Source: Apiospora phragmitis (Eukaryota; Ascomycota; Sordariomycetes; Amphisphaeriales; Apiosporaceae). From it: 64,000 nt of DNA. Made by a program: the position numbers and the translations under genes. The notes beneath the pieces were generated by a model, which was given only the letters and a program-made list of their open reading frames with translations, did not search any database and had not been told where the DNA came from. This document shows, piece by piece, positions 11,716-61,563 of the stretch; the stretch's first letter is position 1; each line of letters starts with the position of its first letter. Location of the stretch: positions 3,286,001 through 3,350,000 of the forward strand of contig JAQQWL010000011.1 of NCBI GenBank assembly GCA_038363925.1, read 5' to 3'.

Positions 11716-12968
11716 ATGCCAGCCGACTACGCATCCACCGCGCAAGCGCTCTCGCTGCCCATCTCCCCGATCGGCACGCCCACCCCGACGACCGGCCGCT
11801 CCGAATTCATCGCCTCCTCCCCGACGAGTCCCTCCCAGCAGCGACCACCACCCTGGGTGCGTCCGAACCGAGCCAACTCCAGCGCGACCCGTCTTTCCAC
11901 CACCTCCTTTGCCCGCCGCAGCAACAACAACAATAATAATGGCGGCGGCGAACAGCCCCTCGGCGCCCGGATCCTGCGGACGAGCACCAACGCGATGAAC
12001 TGGGCCCTGCGGCTGTACTCGCGCCTGACCTTCTGGCAGCAGATGGCGGCCTCGGCGGCGGGCGTCGGCGTGCTGGTTCTCGGCGTCGTGTTCCTGGTCT
12101 TCTCGCACCGCATCTTCGCGTGGCTGATGCCGTTCGCGCAAGGGTGGCGGGACCTGCCCGGCGGCTGGCTGATCGTCTGGCTCATGACGTTCGGCTGCGC
12201 CTTCCCGCCCATGATCGGCTACAGCACGACCATCACGATCGCGGGCCTGGTGTACGGCTTCCCCGGCGGCTGGCCCATCGTGGCGACGGCGACGGTGGCC
12301 GGCTCGACGACGGCCTTCTTCACGAGCCGCACCGTCTTCAGCAGCTACGTCGACCGCCTCGTCGGCAACGACAAGCGCTTCGTCGCCCTCAGCCAGGTCC
12401 TGCGCCACGACGGGCTCTGGGTCCTCGCCGCCATCCGCTTCTGCCCCTTACCCTACAGCCTGAGCAACGGCTTCCTCGCGACCATCCCCAGCATCAGCCC
12501 CCTGAGCTTCGCGTTGGCGACGGCCTCGCCTCGCCGAAACTGCTGATCCACGTCTTTATCGGTAGCCGCCTCGCCCTGCTGGGCGGCGACGCCATGACGG
12601 CCGGCGACAAGGCCATCAACTACCTGAGCATGCTCCTCAGCATGGTCGTCGGGACCGTCATCGGCCTCGTCATCTACCGCCGCACCATGGCGCGCGCCAA
12701 GGAGCTGGCGCTCGAGGAGGCCGCCGAGACGGGCGGCATCATCGACCCCGCGGATGAGGTCCCCTATGGCGGGTACGGCGACGAGGACGGGGACTTGGAA
12801 CAGGGTATTCTCTCGACGACTATGGGTGGTGGCAGCAGGTCGTCGAGACGGGGCGAGACGGATGCTGCCGCGCTGATGGACGATGACGATATCTCTCTGT
12901 GGGAAACCGACGCCATGGAGCACGGGTACAGGGACGATGACAGTCCACACGAAAATACCGATAAATAG
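11716..12968 (+). CDS. TVP38: Tvp38/TMEM64 (DedA-like) Golgi membrane protein, with a -1 frameshift
   Basis: Multi-pass membrane protein of the VTT/DedA superfamily; in yeast Tvp38 resides in late Golgi vesicles. Single exon. The N-terminal 85 residues are Ser/Pro/Asn-rich and cytosolic. The first hydrophobic helix is at about residues 108-132 (GVGVLVLGVVFLVF), then the family core: a PPMIGYS-type segment, GLVYGFPGGWPIVA, and FCPLPYSLSNGFLATIPSISPLSF. The C-terminus is acidic and lacks membrane segments. Length is 1253 nt, one base short. The frame breaks at the CC pair 12524-12525, where an extra C gives ALATALASPKLLIHVFIGSRL. Third positions are strongly G/C-biased compared with neighbouring genes. 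Expected length 417 aa. Confidence 0.87.
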
Positions 12969-19132: not shown

Positions 19133-22100
19133 CTACCCTTCGTCTATTTCTTGTTGCATCTCGATTTCTAGGACGAATTAGCTCGTGGCATATTCTGTAC
19201 GAAAGCCATAGACACTTACGCCAAAGCCGGTTCGCAGAATCCGAGATCACGTTAGCCTTGGCTAGCAGCTTCTCCTCATACTTTTGTTCATCCTTCGTTT
19301 TCAGGCGCAGCTTCGTTGGTTGCGCCTGGTGGCTTATCAGTATGTGGCATCGTAGACACTGAGGTACTGATCCTTACCTGCATCAGAACTGGCACAAGCT
19401 CTCTGGGGTCGGCATTGGCAATAGCAGCAACGGATTTGTAACCGTTCTCGTAGAAGACTCGAGCGGTTCGACTTTTGACAAAGGTGATTTGTGCAAGCGC
19501 CAGCAAATCGGCCTTCGCTCCAGCCTTGAGCCTGTCCGCCACATGGTCAAGCACTGCCGCCATGACACTACTCCCGTGTTAGCCAGGGGATTGCCTGATG
19601 AACAACCGACGATCTGGGGGAAAAAAAGATGCGACATACCCCCAGCCCATGAGCTGGCAAAACTTGATCATTCCTGCCGCGAAACCCTGGCACGTTTGGG
19701 CTAAAGTCTGGACTGTACCTCTGGGCACGTCAAACTTCCGTGCCACACTATGTATGGGTACTTCATTGCACAAGTCTCGAAGCTGAAGAGCTAGGTAGAA
19801 CCTGCTATACACCCGCGCTAGTTCCTTCTCTTCAGGCGTAGATACATTCATCTTCCCCCCTTGAGCCCTACAAGAAAGTCAGCCAGAGGGATACGAGCCA
19901 ACCCTGTAAAGAAAGTACTGACATGCGGTTGATCATTGTTGGCTTCAGGCCGAGGAACTTAAGGACTCGTAAACCACTTTCATCCAGCCTTTCCAACTCG
20001 TCTCGGAAAACTTTCCAATTAATAGTGATGGAAAAGTCCTGCACTGGTGTGAAGGTATAAAGAATGTGCATTTCACCATCCATCACAAAAGCCCGTAGAG
20101 CCCTCTGCAACTCGCGATGGACAAAAGCCCCGTCTTCTGGCTCCAGAGAGGAAGCCACAACAGCCTTGCCTAGTTGGGTAGCTTGATGATTCCCGAAGTC
20201 GTCAAATTCAATAAAGCCCATCTCGCTGAGATCCTTGAGACCTGATTCGACATGGCTTTGTACGGTGCTCGGGGTTTCTATTTGATTTAGCAAGGTCCTG
20301 CGCATGAAGTCCTCGAGCGAATCTCTCCCCGTTGCGAGGCGTATTGCAACGGATTCCAGGAGCGTGCTGAGAAAGCATCAGTCATCCCGCAATATTCAGT
20401 CCATCGGCCGAAACATACCGTTGAATTCTTTGTTTGTCCGTTATCAGTCCACTGGAGACCTGAGGCAACTCGGCATGCATCAGCGCGATAACTCCCTCGA
20501 GGTCGGCTTTGCGACAGCAAAGGTAAGTTTCGCCAATCTCGTCTTTACCCTTCCGTCCCGCTCTCCCACGCATTTGCCGCAACATAGAGGGACCGACAAG
20601 ATCGCGACCCATTCGAGCATTGTGTAAGATTACCCGTCTAGCCTGGAGTATCAATCAGTTATGAGGTTACGAATCCAGATGACGGGGTCGAGCGTACAGG
20701 CAGATTTATGCCAGCGGCTAAGCTACAGGTAGCAACTATAACCTTTAACACGCCACTATCGTAGGCATTTGCAAGAAGGTCACGCTCTTCAATCGTTAAG
20801 CCCGCCTATACGTGTTAGACCAAGACAGCGACAGCACAGCTCCATACTTACATCTGCAATCATGTCAGCTCCATCTTCACATATAATACGTCAAATACAT
20901 ACGATGAAAAGCAACGCCGAAGGGTATGGTGTCAGCAAGACTAGGATCTACCGACTCTCGGCGTTAGTATTACTCTTCTTGGGAAAAAACGAGATGTCTT
21001 AGGAGGGAATAAAGGCAACTCCTCGAATAAAAAGTGATTTCACCCCCCTGTGACACTGGGATAACGAGGAATAACGACTGGAATGGGAAGGAATAGATCT
21101 CGAAAGTCGCTTACCTAACCCCGTGGGCAAACTTTGAAGCTCTCCTAAGAGATCTGACCTCTGCTCCGAGATAGATGGATCGATCTCGTACAAATCAGGT
21201 AGGACGCGGGCAATCAAGCGGGCGTCTGACTCGCACCCTGGCCGACTGCTACAGAAAACTAGTACACCATAGCCAGAACGCACGGTCTCGTTAGCAAGAG
21301 CGATGACGGTATTGAGGACGGGATCCTTGAATTCTTTGTGATCAGAAGGACGGGTCAGCCTCAGGTGTGCTGACGGAGACTGCGAAGGTAAGACATTAGG
21401 AGCAAGCTGGCTGACTGCTTTCAGCAAAGAGCCCGTGGCTGAGGCAGCATAGATCTTGGAATCGTAAACCAAGTGCTCTTCAATGGGGACTGGCCGGTAG
21501 AACGTTTGGTAAGTATGCGCATCGAGCCACTTGGCCAATATGTCGATGTTCTGGGCGCATTAGCAGTCCGCAGTCATATTCTAGGACACAGAACATGGAG
21601 GAAGCCCATCCACTTACAGACAGTGTTGCGCTCATGCCAATAATCTGAACGTTTTGCTCAAGACTGAGAAGCTTGGTGGCCATAAGCTCAAGAAGATAGC
21701 CGCGGTGATCATCATCGATCATATGCAACTCGTCGAGCACAACTGCTCGGAGTTTGACAATGGAATAATCATCTATGGCGGTATTGATCAGGGTATTCGC
21801 CTTTTCGAAAGTACAGACTCCGATATCGAAATCTGCCCAAGTAGCTCTCACCTTGCCGCCGCCGAAGAATCCAACAACTCGGATGGTCCCTTCGTCTGCC
21901 CGCTTGCGCCAAAGCCCTGGTTCTTTTTCGGAAGCCCCCTCGGGTTCTTTACGTCGAAGGCCCTGAACCGCGTTTCGAAGCCACCGGACCTTTTCCTGGA
22001 CCAGGGCAACGTACGGAAGAACCAGGAGCGCCTTCGAGTCCGAGTCTGCAAGAACTCTCTTGAGCATGAGCACGTCGGCGACTAGCGATTTTCCGCCACC

Positions 22101-22565
22101 CGTTGGTGCAGTGTAAACAAGATTTTTATTTCCCGTCAAGATCCCAGGTCCCATGAGACATTGTTTTTGCCAAGGATATATGTCCTTGATGCCAAGAGAA
22201 GCAAAGTTCGTGATCAAACCCTCTGGAAGGGCATATCTGGGATGCGACAGTTGAAGCGCCCTGTCTACATACGACGTGGGCGTTGAAGATATCGCTTTCC
22301 TCTGAGAATATTCGGATATCTCTTGGCTTGCTCCGGGGTCTGTGGTGTCTATGGCACTTGCACGCAACCTGGGTGTTGCTGCACTGATTGAGGATGCTCT
22401 CTGAAATCCAGTCCTGTCCACCAGACCCTGGGAGTTGTGGCCATGCACATCAGCAGTAGAGAAAGACCTTTTGGTTCCAGTGACCGTAGTGGTGCCATAA
22501 GGATTGTGTTGCTGAGCTACATTTTGCACAGTGGTCTGGTGAAATAGACCTTGTCGGGAGGCCAT
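19133..22565 (-). CDS. HELQ/POLQ-type DNA repair helicase, with a 2-nt microexon
   Basis: Ski2-like superfamily 2 helicase related to HELQ and the helicase half of DNA polymerase theta (replication-fork and crosslink repair). No polymerase domain follows. Exons (minus strand): 22565-21618, 21550-21115, 20947-20903, 20853-20852, 20805-20698, 20642-20419, 20366-19923, 19867-19640, 19567-19378, 19325-19220 and 19167-19133. Total 2766 nt, exactly 922 codons. Motifs: Walker A TAPTGGGKS, DELH in VVLDELHMIDDD, GMSATL, GVAFHHAGLTIEERD, and motif VI QMRGRAGRKG. A winged-helix/ratchet-like region and a helix-hairpin-helix-like C-terminus (NGYKSVAAIANADPREL) follow. The N-terminal 110 residues are disordered. 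The second His of HHAG is completed by the 2-nt exon. No homopolymer breaks are seen. Confidence 0.9.
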
Positions 22566-24195: not shown

Positions 24196-24218
24196 ATATA
24201 TATATATATATATATATA
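24196..24218. repeat. (AT)n microsatellite
   Basis: About 11.5 uninterrupted AT units. Confidence 0.95.
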
Positions 24219-27264: not shown

Positions 27265-30200
27265 ATGGCGCCAAAGTCCCAAAGCGTGAGCAGCACCCAG
27301 GATCAGCCAAATCCTGCGTCATCCTCTACGAAGGCCACCCCGGACTCTGGCTCCCATAATAACTCTTCCTCCCACAACACCACCCACTCTCCAACCGCAC
27401 AATCAACAACAAATAATGCCACGCCTGAGCATGCTGCCGCCCCGCAGTCCATGAGCAAATCTGCGGCCACTGCGGGAGCCAATTCGGCGACCAAAGACAA
27501 CATGTCGGCTTCGTCACAGCCATCACCGTACGGCACGCGCTCGAGGAACCGTGGCCAGGCACGTCCCAACTACGCTGAGGACAAAGACGCGGACGTGGAG
27601 ATGTTTGATGCCGTGCCGGAAAAAAAGGAAGAGGAACCCAAGAAATCATCACGGCAAGCGGGCAATTCAGCAAATGGCAGCGCAGATGCTCCGCGTACTA
27701 GCCATCCCAGCTCTCGCAAAGGCACCACCGCTACCGCTACCACCACCACCACCACTTCCACGGATGACAGCAAGCCGAGCACAACCGCGACAAAGGACCA
27801 TCAATCGGCTGCTGCCGGCTCTACAAATGCTACGCCTTCAAGTGCATCGTCATCGTCGTCTAAGAAGCGCAAAGCTGCAAGCCAATCTACTACCAATGGC
27901 GCGCATGCGCACACAGCAGCTACTACGACGCAAAGCTCAAATGCGTCTACAGCTACCGCGAGCACAAGAAGAAGCACGGCCAGCGCAGCAGCTGCTGCAA
28001 CCGCTGCTTCTGGTGGCACCGGCGCAGGCTTCCGGGAGACAAATATGCTAAGCTTTGAAAAGTGTGGCGCAAAACCGAAGGATGGGAAGATGATCGCAGA
28101 TGATGGGACTGTACTACAACACAATGGTAGGACCTCACGTTTTCGACAGTGCATTACGTTTGTGCCGGGGTGGTGATGCTGACACAATCCATAGATCACG
28201 TCTATCTTGTATGCGAACCACCCGGGGAGCCATATTACCTGGGTCGCATCATGGAGTTTCTGCACATGCAAAATGATAGCTCGAAGCCGGTCGACGCGTT
28301 GCGAATTAATTGGTATTACAGACCCAAGGACATCGGCAAGAAGGCAAACGACACGCGACTTGTTTTTGCAACCATGCATTCAGACATTAGCCCATTGACG
28401 GCGCTGCGCGGCAAGTGTGAGATCCGCCATAAAGCCGAAATCGAGAGCATGGACGCATACCGAAAAATCCCCGACTGCTTCTGGTTCGAAAAACTATATG
28501 ACCGCTACATCCAGAAGAACTACGATGTGATCCCCTGCTCGCAAATCGTCAATGTCCCGGGCAAAGTTAAGAAAGTGCTGGATGAGCGATGGAAGTACAT
28601 CTTGGTAGAGCAAGGCCGCTCCAAAGAGTTTACCAGTGCCGTCAAACTCTGTAAGCGATGTAGTGGTTATTGTGCCAAGTAAGTTGACCACACTAAGGCC
28701 GCGGCCCCCCCAGCCCAATTCGCGGATTTCACTGATACAAAAACAGCAACGATTCCGTGGACTGCGCAGTATGCCAGCAGACATATCATATGAATTGCGT
28801 GAGGCCGCCTCTCTTGAAGAAGCCGTCGCGTGGATTTGCCTGGGCTTGCGCCGCCTGCAGTCGCGCCCAGGAACGGAAGCTGGAAGCACGGAACACGCCA
28901 AGCCTTCTGGACCCACATCCCGAAGCTGAAGAAGAAGAGTACTGGGACGAGGAAGACGAGGACCACGGCGCCAACACCAACGGCACAAGCCCGGCCGACG
29001 CCATTGATGACACCCACCAGCCTGCGACTGCTGAGCAAATGTACCACGCCAGTCTCTGGCCATATCGATACCTGGGGATCCATTGTAAGCCCGAAGACGC
29101 TCTCGACTATGATGACCGGATCTATCCCAGAGCTGGGTCGCGCCAGGGTCCCAAACACCAAGCAAATGTTTTGCCATGGTATGGTCGTGCTGTGAGGCTC
29201 GTCAAGCCACTGGAGATCAAGAAAGGCAGCAGGAAAGACGGCAAACATTCGAAGGAAGTCCTTGCAGCTATCGAAGCCGACAAGCTGGCCCGGGAAAAGC
29301 GGCCGAAATGGATACAGGATGAGCCTGCAGGCTACGTTGCACGTGGCGAGGACTATGATAATGACGACCCGAACAATACGGCGCAGTTGCTGTACAAGCC
29401 AGCGGAGTGCGGCACATCAATCACACCTCAAGAGATCGACAAGTACATGACCAACGCCAAAGCTTTAGCGACATCTTTGGATCTCCCAAGCTCTCTACCA
29501 ATCTTCAGGACGTCGCACGGGACGAGCTCTTCAAGACTCAATTCAACACCACCAAGGCCCTTGAAGCGACCAAAAAGACAGACCATGCGGTGTTTAAGGA
29601 GCCCCAGTTGAGTGCCACAGAGCTCAAGAAGTTTGAAGAGGCTGTTAGTAAGTTCGGATCTGAACTGCTCTATGTTACACGGCATGTCAAGACCGTCAAA
29701 CACAAAGATATTGTTCGCTTCTATTATACTTGGAAAAAGACGGACAAGGGCAAACAAATCTGGGGCAACTACTCGGGAAGGAAAGGCAAGAAAGAACTTA
29801 GGAAAGCTGAAGCCAACGCCAGCAAGCTCCAAGATGATGTGGCCGACGATCAGGACGACTCAGCTTTCGATACCGAAAAGGCTGTGGAACGCAAGCGGAA
29901 TTTCATGTGCAAGTTCTGCACGACAAAGTCTTCGAGGCAGTGGCGGAGGGCACCCAACGTGACTCAAGCCATGGTCACTGAAGGCAGCGGTAAAAATAAA
30001 GACAAAGGCACACAGTATATCGTTGCCCTCTGCCGCCGCTGTGCCGAACTCTGGCGACGTTACGCTATCCAATGGGAGGACATGGAGGAATTGGCAAAGA
30101 AAGTGCAGAATGCTGGTGGTCGAGCATGGAAACGACGTGTAGACGAGGAGCTTCTCAAGGAGCTGGCTACAGCAAACGAGATGATGAGCGCCACGGTCTA

Positions 30201-32464
30201 CAGCACGCCCAGTGCTTCGGCCACACCGAGTGCATCTGCTCCTCCACCGAACGGCACAGTGGAACCCCCACCGCGAAAGAAGCTCAAGACCCTTGCAGAC
30301 AAAGAAGCTGAGCTCAACGCCTCCGACTCCGGCAGTATGTCTTGTGTCGTTGCGCCGCCCAAGAAGAAGGAGAAAGTGGCGGTCGAAAAACCGGCGCCTC
30401 CTCCAGTCCCGGAGATCCCGAAACCCCGGACTTTGCCCTGTGCAGTATGTGGACAGCTGGAGCCTGCGGGAGACCAACAACTTTTGGCATGTAAGGAGTG
30501 CCGTCTGAGCGTCCATCGGAAATGTTATGGCGTGGTCGACAACCGACAACCTGGAAAGTGGACTTGTGATACGTGCATGAACGACAAGAACCCCCAGGTC
30601 TCACTCGTAAGTGCCAGCACCACCGGATTTTCAGACGTCCCAACAATACTAACTGTCTCTCAGGATTACAAATGTCTGTTGTGTCCCGTTGAGTCTACCG
30701 AGCACGACTTTGTAGAACCACCCAAGAACACGCATAAGAAAAAGACGGAAAAGGAGCGAGAAAAGGACCGCCAAGAGCGTGAAGCTGCGCAGAAAGCCGC
30801 GGACTATTATCAAAAGAAGCAAGAGGAGCTGAACCGTCCTCCGAACCCCAGGGAACCGTTAAAACGTACTGCGGACAACAACTGGGTTCATGTCTCATGT
30901 GCGGTGTGGGCACCGGAAGTCCGATTCGGCAATCCCAAGGCATTGAGTCCCGCCGAGGGCGTCCCGCTGATAGCTCATAGCAGACATCACGAAGTATGCA
31001 GGGTCTGCAAGGCTAAGGGTGGTGCATGTGTGCATTGCCATCACTGCAAAGCCCCACTCCATGTTGAGTGCGCTCGGCAAGCCGGCTATCTCCTAGGCTT
31101 CGAGGTGTCTCCTGTGAAGGGCTCGCGCCGCGATCAAGCCACCATCGTTAACATCAATGGAGAAACAGGCTCAATGTCGGCAGCAGTCTGGTGCAAAGAA
31201 CACGTCCCAGTCAAGACCGTGGTCCATCGCATGCACGATACGGTCAATCAAGAAGGTGACGACGGCAACACAGACTCTGCAGGGCTCAATGCTCTCCAGC
31301 TTTTCGTGCAGAACTTCAAACAGGCAGATGAGGCGCTTACGGGTACTGTTAGGAAGGCTAAGCTCCTGGAAATCATATCCAACTACGATGGCAGCCACAA
31401 GCCGTCATATGCAGATCGTCCCAAGGGCGACAAGGTCTGCATTACCTGTGGTGTCGACATCAGCCCGAAGTGGTGGCCTATTGATAAATTGCACGAAAAG
31501 GCATTGACTAATGGTCACTACGGCTCTTTGGGCACCGAGGCACAGAAGTTTGTCGACCAACGGACTTTCCAATGTCACAAGTGTAAAAAGGCTGGTCGAA
31601 AGCCTACCCCTCACGTGCCGTCTCCCGCAGAAGAGACTGTGCCGCCGCAAATGGACCCCGCGAGAGCACCACCGGCTCTTGCTGCGGCGCTGACAAGCCC
31701 TCCGGCTGCCGCTGCGGCGGCCCAGTATCCCCCAACTGATGCATATGAAGCACGGCCTTGGGCAGCCCTCGCGCCGGTCGCGCCTCCCGTTGCACCGCCT
31801 TCTATGCAAGCTCCTTCAGTTGTACCCCCTGCGCCGCCATCAGTAAATGCCACTCACGTCGCGCACAGCCCTATGGCTGCTCCGATCACCCAGCCGCCGC
31901 CGCCACCCCATCACTACGCTCCTCCGCCCCCGACCGGTACTTCGTACAGCGACTGGCATCGTACTGTGACACAGCACTCGCCGCCCGCACACCCTATGAA
32001 CGGTGGTCCTGGGGGTCACAGTGGGTTGCACCCAAATCATCTACGCGACCTCCGCCCCCGCGATTGCACCCATGTCACACCATCCAGGACCCCCTCATCA
32101 TCACGGTGTGATGGGCCAACCCATGACCAATGGTATGCCACCTTCACCACCTCGACGAGCACCTGCTGTGCCGAACGGCCCGGCGCCGTACCTCCCTGCT
32201 TATCACCACCCGACACCCCACTCGCTACACAACCTTACCAATGGCGGTCCGCCGCCGAGAGCTGGAGAACACTCTTTTTCGGCGGGACTTCTGGGTCACC
32301 GATCGCCATTTTCAACACCTCAGGGCAGCCCCCCTGTCGCGCGAGACGGCTTGCCAATGAGTCGCGAACCAAGCATGTCGAACAATAACCCACCGCGGCC
32401 GACTGATGGACGTGCGGCCAGCGGAGCTAGCGCAAGTCCTTCTCTGCGCAATCTCCTTTCGTGA
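27265..32464 (+). CDS. SNT2: Snt2-like chromatin reader (BAH, PHD, SANT, extended PHD), two frameshifts
   Basis: Nuclear scaffold of the Snt2/Ecm5/Rpd3-type complex that reads histone H3 tails in stress responses. Exons 27265-28126, 28195-28678, 28747-30606 and 30664-32464; 5007 nt, 1668 aa. Order: Ser/Thr-rich N-terminus; BAH from about residue 270 (HVYLVCEPPGEPYYLGRI); PHD1 near 440-500 (CKRCSGYCA, QQTYHMNC); SANT near 735-785; GATA-like Cys pairs (CKFCTTKSSRQWRR, CRRCAELWRRY) near 835-880; PHD2 near 1010-1065; extended PHD (CLLCPVE, WVHVSCAVW, CRVCKAKGGACVHC) near 1070-1190; a final CITCG/CHKC pair; and a Pro-rich tail. The third intron is 57 nt and free of stops. Frame breaks: one missing A at 29488-29489 and one extra C in the C5 run 32055-32059. 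They cancel, so the length is a multiple of 3. Confidence 0.9.
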
Positions 32465-44092: not shown

Positions 44093-47000
44093 TCAAAAGC
44101 GCCATCTCGGCTTGTTGCTGTCTTGATCGGAGCCAGCACTGCTCAGCTTGCGTACGTTGGAGCGCAAGCCAGAAAAACCTGCCTGTAGGCCTCCTGGGCG
44201 TGCGCCACCACCGGCAGCCAAAGAAGTGTTCGTCTTCAAGGAACTAGGTTGAGGAAGCATGCTGGTGCGTCGGGAAGTGGCCATGGAACTAGCTGACCGC
44301 CTCGTCTCGGCAGTTTGGCTCTCCGGTCTAGGTGGGTGGAAGGAGGCACGTCGGTTATTCAGCGTCGACATCGAAGCCTGCGAATTCAGGGGAGGCCTTG
44401 CTGCCAGCGTTTGCTGTGCGTAGGGGCCCGGCGAAGACAGTATCCGCTCCCGGAAGCTCATCCGTGATCCGCTAGGTCTTGGAGGGGTAGCGTCGGAATT
44501 AGGTGACCCTGTGCTGTCTCGGCCATGGGGTGTGCGTAGGGTGGGGATCTTGGAGTTTGATGTGGGCGTGAGGGCAGGCTGTGAGCGAACTGGGGTGGTA
44601 CTCCTCTTGGCGTACGGGCTCGGGGTCGTGAGAGTCAGAGGCTTGAAGTTGTGGCCCACGTCCGAATCCCTTGTGTTGACGACGTTGTTCCACCGAGGTC
44701 GGTTGTCGGCAGCATTGGAAGCCGACCGTGGTGCGCGGCTGCCAATGCCAACAGGGGTAGCGGACGCGCTCCGGGGCGGCGTATAAAGGCTGGGCGACGG
44801 AGAGGACAGTGTAGAGACACGGGATGATACCGGCCTCCTGGCAATATGAGACGGCGGTGCCAGCGAGCTCCTCCGAGTCGATGTGGGTTGCGGGAGATGG
44901 CTTCCGGTGCTTCCAGACCGACTCTTATTGCCCCCGTAAGGAGTGTGAGGCTCCAAACCGAGGTTAGACATCACAACCGATGACGGTGGCGAGCTGCCGG
45001 GAGTCTCATTGCCGCTAGCAACGGTGGATCTATCGTTGGACAGAAGGCTGGAGATGGAATCACGTAGAGTCTGGCCCCTTTTATCGGTTTGGATTTCCTC
45101 CAATATGGCATCCAACTCCTTCATCTGCTCCTTGACGTCTTGCCACTTTGCCTGCATCTCGGTGTGTAACCGAAGAATTTCCCCATTCACGGTAAGCCGG
45201 TCTTTCACGCCCCTGTCAATGATGCTAAGGACGCGCTCAATTGCTGGCCCATAGTGCATCTTCTTGGCCTCGTAGCTTTCGATTTTCTTACCCAGCACGG
45301 CCGGGTTTGTCAAGTGCATTCCCGAGTCCACGGCTTCCCGCAACTTAGCCTGACTCCTTTCGACCGACTCGATCATCTTCTGTGCTTGACGTCCGGCACC
45401 ACGGAAGACGAGAATCCACTTGTCCTCTCCTAGTTCCTTTCGCAACGACTCGGCGTCCTTCTCCAGTTTCTTGTAGCTAGCTTCAAGCGAGGTCCTCCGC
45501 TCATCCAGCTCTTCGCAGGCGGTTGGGAAGGACCTCTGAGCTCTGGTCTCGAACACGGAGAGCCGCATCGGCAGGAAGTCTAACGAGGCTCGCAACGGCT
45601 GCATCCTAGCAAACAGAGCAAGGAGACTCCCATCGTCCTGCGTCATGGTAGGGGCAGCAGGCGATGCTGGACTGATCGGGAAAGCAGTCAGGCTGCTGCG
45701 ATTGTTACGGGCTGCGGCCGGTGGGTTTTCCTCAACTATGGTCTCTAGATCACCCAGGTCGAGATTATCCCCATTGGCAGCTGCCATGAGTGACTTGTGC
45801 CTCCGTTCCTCCATCTCGAAAACCAGGCGAGTGAGATCGTCCATCTCGTTTTGAATTTCGCCAAGAACGGTATCCCATAGCTCTTCCCATTCCATTGCGA
45901 TCTCGACTTGGCTCTTGGCCGTTTTCAAAATTGTGCGTACCTTAGCCCATTCCGTAAGAATGGACTCCATCTGCGTCACTGCTCTTTGGAGATCATCGCT
46001 CGAGACAGCGGCGATGTCATTGCGGCACTGAAGTTCCTCGATGGCGCTAACGTAGACATTGATGAGCTCCTCGAACCTGGCGATGGCGTTTTCAACATCC
46101 TCGTAGCCCTCTCTGCCACCTGCAGCCGCCCATTCGACGTCGTCATCACTGTCCAAGCCCCCGATTACATCAGTAGCTTTATGTATCCACATCCGAATCT
46201 GCTCAGCCGCGCTGATCAGAGCTTTGGTAGCTGTCTGGGCTGTTGGGATTGCCGATATTCTGCTAGATAATGATTCTGCATCTGGCAACTGCAACGACGT
46301 CAGCTGCGCTAGCTGGTTGGCGAAGGATAACCTGGAGATGGTATATATGGACCCCGCCCGCTGCAAACCGAGTGGGTTGAAGTAAGAGGCGGCATCGTTA
46401 CTGAACTCAGCTGGCGCAGCCCCCACGGGCGGTGTATCCTTGGGCGGTGGGGGAGGCGGTATTTCGCGCTCAATATGTTCTTGTTTGATGTTTGATAGAG
46501 CTTTTGTCCCGTTGCCATTGGTGTGGTCGGGTAGTCGGTACTTGTGCGTGTCCATGTCCAAGGGAGCAGCGGCAACGATCTCCGGGAGAAGATCGGGCTT
46601 CGCAGCCAAATTCTCTGCCTCGGGCGGCGGGCTTTGGGTGTCGGTCTTGGATTCTGTCGGCTTCTCTTCGTCGTGGTCTTTCCTCGAAAACAGGCTGCTA
46701 CGGCTCGACTTGGATCTCAGCAGCTGAAGAGGGGCACCCGCACCCTTCCAGGGGCGACCGCGCCGTTCAACGTCAGCCGCGGAGCTGTTAGCTTGGTGCT
46801 TTTGGTCGAGAAGTCGAAGCGTGTCTTCAGGGAGCCGGCCGACTGCCGCGGGCGAGGGTGATGATTGCTTGCCCGCCGGTGCTCCGCCACCAAAACCAAG
46901 AGCCTTGAGGCGCGCTGCTAGACCGGGGGAAGGTTTGCGCGGGTAATTTTGCGAATTGTGGCGGCTGAGCGGTGTCGGCTTGCGACCTGATGGTGGTGTA

Positions 47001-47311
47001 GTCGCGGCGAAAGAGGCGGCAGTGTCGTCGAGGTGCTGGAATTCTGGATCAAGCGGACCCAGCTTCAGCAGGTCGTCTGGCACATCGGAGAAGGTCAGAG
47101 TGTTTGGTTCTAAGGCTAGGTCGGCGTCGGCATCTTGGTGACCTATCACATTGGGTTTTTCGGGGTATCCTGGCGGCACCCTAATGGAGACGTCCGTGGG
47201 TTTCTGTTCTTGCTGCTGCTGGCTCTGGAAATTGGAGGAAGGAGTACAATGAGTTGGCGCAGCTGCAGACCCAGAAAGAGTCGGGTCTGCCGCGTGAGGT
47301 AGGCCTGTCAT
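44093..47311 (-). CDS. KAR9: Kar9-family spindle-positioning protein
   Basis: Single exon, 1072 aa, frame intact. Kar9 bridges microtubule plus ends (EB1/Bim1) to myosin/actin to orient spindles and move nuclei. Residues 1-310 are disordered and Pro/Ser-rich. The Kar9 helical domain runs from about 315 to 780, including ISRLSFANQLAQLTSLQLPD, RLSVFETRAQRSFPTACEEL, LGEDKWILVFRGAGRQAQKM and KIESYEAKKMHYGPAIERVL. A basic Ser/Pro/Arg-rich tail follows, with an SxIP-type EB1-binding motif (SKIPTLRTP) near residue 920. The family signature WILVFRGAG makes the assignment firm. The start at 47311 is the first ATG of the frame. Confidence 0.92.
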   Translation of the reverse strand: MTGLPHAADPTLSGSAAAPTHCTPSSNFQSQQQQEQKPTDVSIRVPPGYPEKPNVIGHQDADADLALEPNTLTFSDVPDDLLKLGPLDPEFQHLDDTAASFAATTPPSGRKPTPLSRHNSQNYPRKPSPGLAARLKALGFGGGAPAGKQSSPSPAAVGRLPEDTLRLLDQKHQANSSAADVERRGRPWKGAGAPLQLLRSKSSRSSLFSRKDHDEEKPTESKTDTQSPPPEAENLAAKPDLLPEIVAAAPLDMDTHKYRLPDHTNGNGTKALSNIKQEHIEREIPPPPPPKDTPPVGAAPAEFSNDAASYFNPLGLQRAGSIYTISRLSFANQLAQLTSLQLPDAESLSSRISAIPTAQTATKALISAAEQIRMWIHKATDVIGGLDSDDDVEWAAAGGREGYEDVENAIARFEELINVYVSAIEELQCRNDIAAVSSDDLQRAVTQMESILTEWAKVRTILKTAKSQVEIAMEWEELWDTVLGEIQNEMDDLTRLVFEMEERRHKSLMAAANGDNLDLGDLETIVEENPPAAARNNRSSLTAFPISPASPAAPTMTQDDGSLLALFARMQPLRASLDFLPMRLSVFETRAQRSFPTACEELDERRTSLEASYKKLEKDAESLRKELGEDKWILVFRGAGRQAQKMIESVERSQAKLREAVDSGMHLTNPAVLGKKIESYEAKKMHYGPAIERVLSIIDRGVKDRLTVNGEILRLHTEMQAKWQDVKEQMKELDAILEEIQTDKRGQTLRDSISSLLSNDRSTVASGNETPGSSPPSSVVMSNLGLEPHTPYGGNKSRSGSTGSHLPQPTSTRRSSLAPPSHIARRPVSSRVSTLSSPSPSLYTPPRSASATPVGIGSRAPRSASNAADNRPRWNNVVNTRDSDVGHNFKPLTLTTPSPYAKRSTTPVRSQPALTPTSNSKIPTLRTPHGRDSTGSPNSDATPPRPSGSRMSFRERILSSPGPYAQQTLAARPPLNSQASMSTLNNRRASFHPPRPESQTAETRRSASSMATSRRTSMLPQPSSLKTNTSLAAGGGARPGGLQAGFSGLRSNVRKLSSAGSDQDSNKPRWRF

Positions 47312-56317: not shown

Positions 56318-61563
<5,246 letters not shown>

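Follow-up and report, generated by a model that had tools for sequence, protein, structure and literature searches.

A predicted two-nucleotide exon completes the conserved HHAG motif in a POLQ-type helicase gene of Apiospora phragmitis

How can a gene encode a conserved helicase motif when the codon for the second histidine of that motif is broken by two introns with only two bases between them? The question is raised by a locus in Apiospora phragmitis, within the 64,000-nucleotide stretch of contig JAQQWL010000011.1 analyzed here (hereafter the window). The minus strand of the window carries, at 19133..22565, a helicase gene of 11 exons with a coding sequence of 2766 nt; this equals the 922 codons counted by an initial annotation of the same DNA, stop included, and hence 921 amino acids plus stop. 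Exon 3 (20903..20947, minus; 45 nt) ends GCT TTT CAT C, in phase 1. It is followed by intron 3 (20854..20902, minus; 49 nt; GTATGT…CTGAC…TTGCAG, at position C^AT), the bases AT (20852..20853, minus; exon 4), intron 4 (20806..20851, minus; 46 nt; GTAAGTAT…CTAAC…TATAG with donor GTAAGT, at position AT^GC), and exon 5 (20698..20805, minus; 108 nt), which starts GCG GGC TTA in phase 0. The initial annotation had given the coordinates and letters of this segment exactly. Joined to the final C of exon 3, AT forms the second His codon of FHHAGLT. In our reading, AT at 20853-20852 is very probably an entire 2-nt exon, used constitutively by a POLQ-type helicase gene and joined to its neighbours after the predicted removal of the 49-nt and 46-nt introns.

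POLQ-type here refers to the helicase half of DNA polymerase theta. Pfam matches in the 921-aa model comprise DEAD, Helicase_C, HTH_61, POLQ_helical, and DUF7898, and DEAD, Helicase_C, HTH_61, and POLQ_helical occur in this order, as is characteristic of POLQ-type membership. Among solved structures, POLQ helicase chains match best (E 1.5e-124), and archaeal-type Hel308 trails far behind (1.1e-52); at the motif, POLQ chain 9bh6_A reads gvafhhagltfeerd. Given these structural matches and the POLQ_helical match, the original designation of "HELQ/POLQ" can be narrowed to POLQ, and its HELQ half is set aside. Pfam recovered no match in the 921-aa model to the family-A polymerase domain of full-length POLQ. 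Helicase-only POLQ orthologs are described for Pezizomycotina in the available portion of PMC8469720, and the predicted protein thus fits a homolog of this kind. The eight best protein matches (among the best 120 of 1285) are 87-95% identical and all belong to Apiospora, with A. rasikravindrae at 95%; the next match is 73% identical, which places the host in Apiospora, a genus of the order Amphisphaeriales. A 128-aa piece finds no second close match in the 52.7-Mb genome; the other matches are at most 40% identical, so the helicase gene looks single-copy. Elsewhere in the window, four of ten long ORFs tested match Pfam families above the cut-off: KAR9 (44096-47311, minus), PHD-finger (29407-32385, plus), DEAD helicase (58553-60487, minus), and VTT-domain (11716-12543, plus). 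A (TA)n run of 23 bases lies upstream of the helicase gene (window 24196-24218).

All ten introns of the gene start with GT, end with AG, and contain a CTRAY motif whose first base is 13-20 nt from the 3' end. None is shorter than the two that flank AT, at 46 and 49 nt as compared with 52-167 nt for the remaining eight, a small correction to the earlier claim that they sit at about the "minimum fungal size". At the other extreme, intron 2 (window 21114-20948; 167 nt) has more than double the length of each of the other nine (46-72 nt). The ten donors were scored against the U1 donor consensus. The donor of intron 4, GTAAGTAT, is the only one to match all eight intronic positions; when three exonic bases are included it scores 9/11, second to intron 9 (10/11). 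Canonical donor, branch, and acceptor signals are therefore present on both flanks of AT, as first described, and inclusion of AT is needed for both the reading frame and the conserved motif; both features are expected of an ultra-small exon. Skipping AT leads to a stop at codon 482, keeping intron 3 to a stop at 485, keeping intron 4 to a stop at 498, and keeping both to a stop at 485, which agrees with the initial statements that the frame is lost without AT and that retention of either intron is disruptive. Introns 3 and 4 (20902-20854 and 20851-20806) also have the 9-mer ATGGAGCTG in common, a length reached in 41 of 5000 simulations. Tandem duplication is not claimed as the origin of the two introns, since the copies are out of register with the intron ends.

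Splice solutions that lead from exon 3 through exon 5 were enumerated, with donors restricted to GT or GC, acceptors to AG, and intron length to 35 nt or more. This yielded 690 open in-frame solutions, 24 with one intron and 666 with two; a single one restores FHHAG, and it is the AT exon that the initial annotation had proposed. The AT-exon solution also aligns best with two homologs (score 387; runner-up 341). Decoy solutions in the window yield FGAGLT, FHQRD, and FHHVKRD, types that resemble errors in the protein models of relatives (G|AGLT in Neoarthrinium; the others in Colletotrichum and Fusarium). The window was additionally scanned on both strands for chains of two introns of 40-80 nt, each with donor, branch, and acceptor consensus, separated by an exon of 0-9 nt. 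The only chain is at the AT site, where it can be parsed in two ways (exon of 2 or 6 nt). The same consensus, selected once the locus was already known, produced 0.075 chains on average across 40 Markov-1 simulated windows, none of them with a 2-nt exon. By chance alone, no chain of this type would be expected in a 64-kb stretch. Recursive splice sites, in which an acceptor abuts a donor (AG|GT) and no base is retained, were considered as a description of the site and rejected: here AG and GT are separated by two bases, both required for the frame.

If gene-finding programs cannot place an exon this small, its absence should be visible in annotated relatives. Two full-length protein searches (best 120 of 1285 and best 120 of 1254 matches) were pooled into 182 distinct cluster representatives, the motif was scored as F[HY]HAG[LMIF]T, and group labels were assigned by hand; as the representatives are 90% clusters, some of them from one species, the counts below are not independent events. 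The motif is absent from 65 of these 182 listed relatives, including all eight Apiospora models, in line with the suspicion voiced at the outset that annotated orthologs are wrong at this spot. Losses among the listed relatives also affect other Xylariales (4/7), Colletotrichum (31/39), Plectosphaerellaceae (7/8), Hypocreales (12/15), and Sordariales (3/9), and are not seen among the 65 Xylariaceae and allies, 10 Diaporthales, 4 Coniochaetales/Calosphaeriales/Thyridium, or 17 lgn proteins listed. The lgn proteins were considered as cDNA and dropped in this role, because some lie on contigs of 32-105 kb and hence may be spliced predictions; their 17 intact motifs were excluded as transcript evidence. 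The missing motifs probably reflect the inability of gene-finding programs to place so small an exon.

Motif-presence regexes were initially applied as a control at other junctions and proved too strict, several control motifs being missing more often than FHHAG because clades differ by honest substitutions; they were replaced by a gap count. Gaps of at least two residues occur within four residues of the AT site in 56 of 182 models, whereas at each of the remaining eight junctions the count is 3-13 of 182. The AT site (residue 477) ranks second overall, exceeded by a hot spot at residues 204-215 with gaps in up to 93 of 182 models; this loop does not coincide with any junction of the gene in the window and probably reflects natural length variation. 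A second weak spot is the next junction, around residue 513 (INLP|ARR; 13/182), where some Colletotrichum and Verticillium models are damaged too (e.g., P0252, P0254, P0257, P0290, P0292). Separately, 16 indel-bearing models among 120 proteins, from genera that we take to belong to Hypoxylaceae, have indels clustering at FCSSRPGCE, residues 411-429 (e.g., P0026, P0040, P0047, P0065, P0067, P0083), which may be where the [D1,2] stwintron described for POLQ in this family resides.

The form of the errors is informative as well. Nine of the 182 models (class a; Apiospora, Colletotrichum, Verticillium, and Fusarium) read FHHV, as if C|AT ran on into GT, and nine others (class b) read FHR…AGLT, as if C|GT were read through. 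In class c (23/182), FH is followed by a foreign piece, as if the phase-1 donor C|GT had been joined to a wrong acceptor, although P0281 (FHQQAGLT) fits this class poorly. Class d (18/182) drops VAFHH and joins an upstream point to |AGLT, as if a phase-0 acceptor stood right before GCN; P0002 is short by 46 residues, and P0005 and P0008 have YAD before AGLT. Class e (4/182) reads FHQAGLT or FHRAGLT, and P0079 and P0276 fit no class. All five classes are present in Colletotrichum, and classes a to d in both Hypocreales and Apiospora. A phase-1 donor after C and a phase-0 acceptor before GCN together require two further bases, and class a displays these two bases, followed by GT. In A. hydei P0003, the counterpart of intron 4 has apparently been read as 16 residues, VSMEPCCLHRSLTGIQ, after FHH: VSME is the translation of the window's GTAAGTATGGAG, and LTGIQ fits CTNAC plus ATHCAG, i.e., branch and acceptor. 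YADAGLT in A. arundinis P0005 likewise fits TAYGCAG|AT joined to GCN. Some motif-less models also have no Helicase_C match (e.g., P0006, P0007, P0251, P0274).

These models bear directly on other readings of the locus. It could be proposed that a single phase-shifting intron drops part of exon 3 or 5, so that a shortened motif (e.g., FG|AGLT or FHQRD) is real; the 24 open one-intron solutions in the window would permit this, and several relatives are annotated like such forms. None of the 24 retains FHHAG, however, and the shortened versions differ among close species, and even within species, in the manner of prediction artefacts: C. abscissum carries class b in P0244 and class d in P0250, and C. 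acutatum is intact in P0247, class c in P0251, and class e in P0269. We regard a real shortened motif as extremely improbable. A nested, stwintron-like intervening sequence removed contiguously would instead leave two of the 97 bases, taken from its own ends (AG, GG, or GT), and give FHQAG or FHRAG. Four models have FHRAGLT or FHQAGLT with length kept (P0094, P0098, P0262, P0269), and stwintrons are known in Xylariales, including one in the Hypoxylaceae POLQ gene, according to the accessible text of PMC8469720 and PMC9024468. However, 95 nt can be removed in one piece in three ways, with ends GT-AT, TA-TA, and AT-AG, and none yields FHHAG; 117 of 182 models, and the POLQ structure chains, retain the second His; and the four models would be what results when the AT of a cDNA is aligned, at the cost of one mismatch, with the end of an intron. 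Nor does the site have the form of a [D1,2] stwintron (G|GT…AG|T, with no exon bases between), which requires G before GT, whereas the window has C|GT and AG|AT|GT. A contiguous removal thus appears very improbable.

A pseudogene, or a misassembled locus, with the gap around AT as damage, is scarcely credible. This analysis found no evidence in favor of this reading, and against it, the remaining exons are open over 921 aa, the protein is 95% identical to that of A. rasikravindrae, every intron of the gene is a GT-AG intron with a CTRAY branch, the genome offers no other close match to the 128-aa piece, and the same residue fails in each of the eight Apiospora models.

How far beyond Apiospora the 2-nt exon extends is a separate matter from its existence in the window. 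The failures of gene models, an indirect line of evidence, suggest that it is likely present in other orders as well, and the same arrangement is predicted for Colletotrichum, Verticillium/Sodiomyces, Fusarium, other Hypocreales, some Sordariales, and other Amphisphaeriales; by this reasoning, the exon is probably old in Sordariomycetes. Counting against conservation across orders, FHHAG is intact in 8/39 Colletotrichum, 3/15 Hypocreales, 1/8 Plectosphaerellaceae, and 6/9 Sordariales models. An alternative confined to the question of conservation, and overlapping with the 2-nt exon in the window, is that the exon is restricted to Apiospora and near relatives and that errors in other orders have causes such as a lone, awkward C^AT intron. 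Other fungi do seem to have the C^AT intron but not its neighbour: among shorter relatives (best 120 of 526 matches, from metagenomes and other sources), an uninterrupted FHR…DAG reading is seen in nine of the 120 listed (P0201, P0212, P0222, P0224, P0225, P0230, P0236-P0238), and in each of these the residue that precedes D is compatible with an A-ending codon, as C|GT…AG|AT GC predicts. However, a lone C^AT intron would splice in phase, and Colletotrichum and Fusarium instead show FHHV and joins directly before AGLT; we consider the restriction to Apiospora and its near relatives unlikely. No Apiospora fragment, and no identity above 79%, was found among these best 120 of 526 shorter relatives, and one scan each of bacterial/archaeal genomes and viral contigs returned no genomic locus of a relative. 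Taking the C^AT intron as the older of the two, the AT^GC intron was probably gained two bases on, in or before an early sordariomycete, and the arrangement may later have been lost in Xylariaceae and Diaporthales.

Introns 3 and 4 are probably excised successively by intron definition, as the initial annotation plausibly proposed. U1 bound at the second donor would mask the AG that ends intron 3, making simultaneous use of the two sites unlikely. The full match of this donor, GTAAGTAT, to the eight intronic U1 positions may compensate for the missing exon. Each failure tested in the window, namely skipping AT or keeping either or both introns, stops within 21 codons of the site, and this raises the idea that the exon has been kept since early sordariomycetes as a gate on the helicase, making POLQ-type repair tunable via the splicing efficiency of two bases; we consider this quite doubtful.

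If the proposed structure is correct, it would represent a 2-nt exon in a fungal gene, extending by prediction across several orders of one class, in a motif shared with animal POLQ. Genes with two introns and the 2-nt exon, with one intron, and with none may provide a natural series for adjacent-intron gain, and the same series may show how the spliceosome copes with an exon smaller than the footprint it occupies on RNA. The absence of the motif from many public POLQ-helicase models (Colletotrichum, Verticillium, Fusarium, Apiospora) means that repair-gene surveys relying on these models can miscount, and junctions that cannot be joined in phase are a usable search signal for further exons of this kind. 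Searches of the open-licence PMC literature for 2-nt exons, fungal microexons, and a POLQ micro-exon found no report of this one.

Several known systems are comparable, going by the portions of the cited papers that were available. Consecutive excision, in an orthologous gene, is also described for the Hypoxylaceae [D1,2] stwintrons, one of which is in the POLQ-helicase gene; these differ in having no exon bases between the introns and a donor split between G1 and T2 (PMC8469720, PMC9024468). The available text of PMC12403724 contains no match for helicase. The Trichoderma Xlr2 microexon is likewise from a filamentous fungus, but at 20 nt it is ten times longer, and it is glucose-regulated (PMC11121469). 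The 3-nt exons of Dactylellina lipS are also very small and ascomycete, but comprise three bases, so that their loss keeps the frame (PMC5639578). According to PMC12940212, Arabidopsis, Drosophila, and humans have exons of 2-5 bp, and 1-nt exons occur in Arabidopsis APC11 (PMC4674806) and plant VPS55 (PMC8831610). The latter two resemble the AT exon in being ultra-small and systematically missed by annotation, and they are deeply conserved, as the AT exon is predicted to be; VPS55 has conserved GTRAGT donors. Unlike the AT exon, they are from plants and were shown by RNA-seq and RT-PCR (PMC4674806, PMC8831610). A fungal counterpart is the 1-nt exon of CYP621A in Fusarium (PMC12940212). Like the AT exon, it belongs to a sordariomycete, falls in a conserved motif, joins out-of-phase exons between two GT-AG introns, and is wrong in nearly all of the gene models listed by its authors. 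It differs in being a single nucleotide, in one genus, and documented by RNA reads, whereas the exon in the window has two nucleotides, belongs to a repair-type helicase, and is predicted from sequence in several orders (PMC12940212). Ultra-small exons as such are already known; the one in the window is notable for its inferred depth and for its damage to public annotation.
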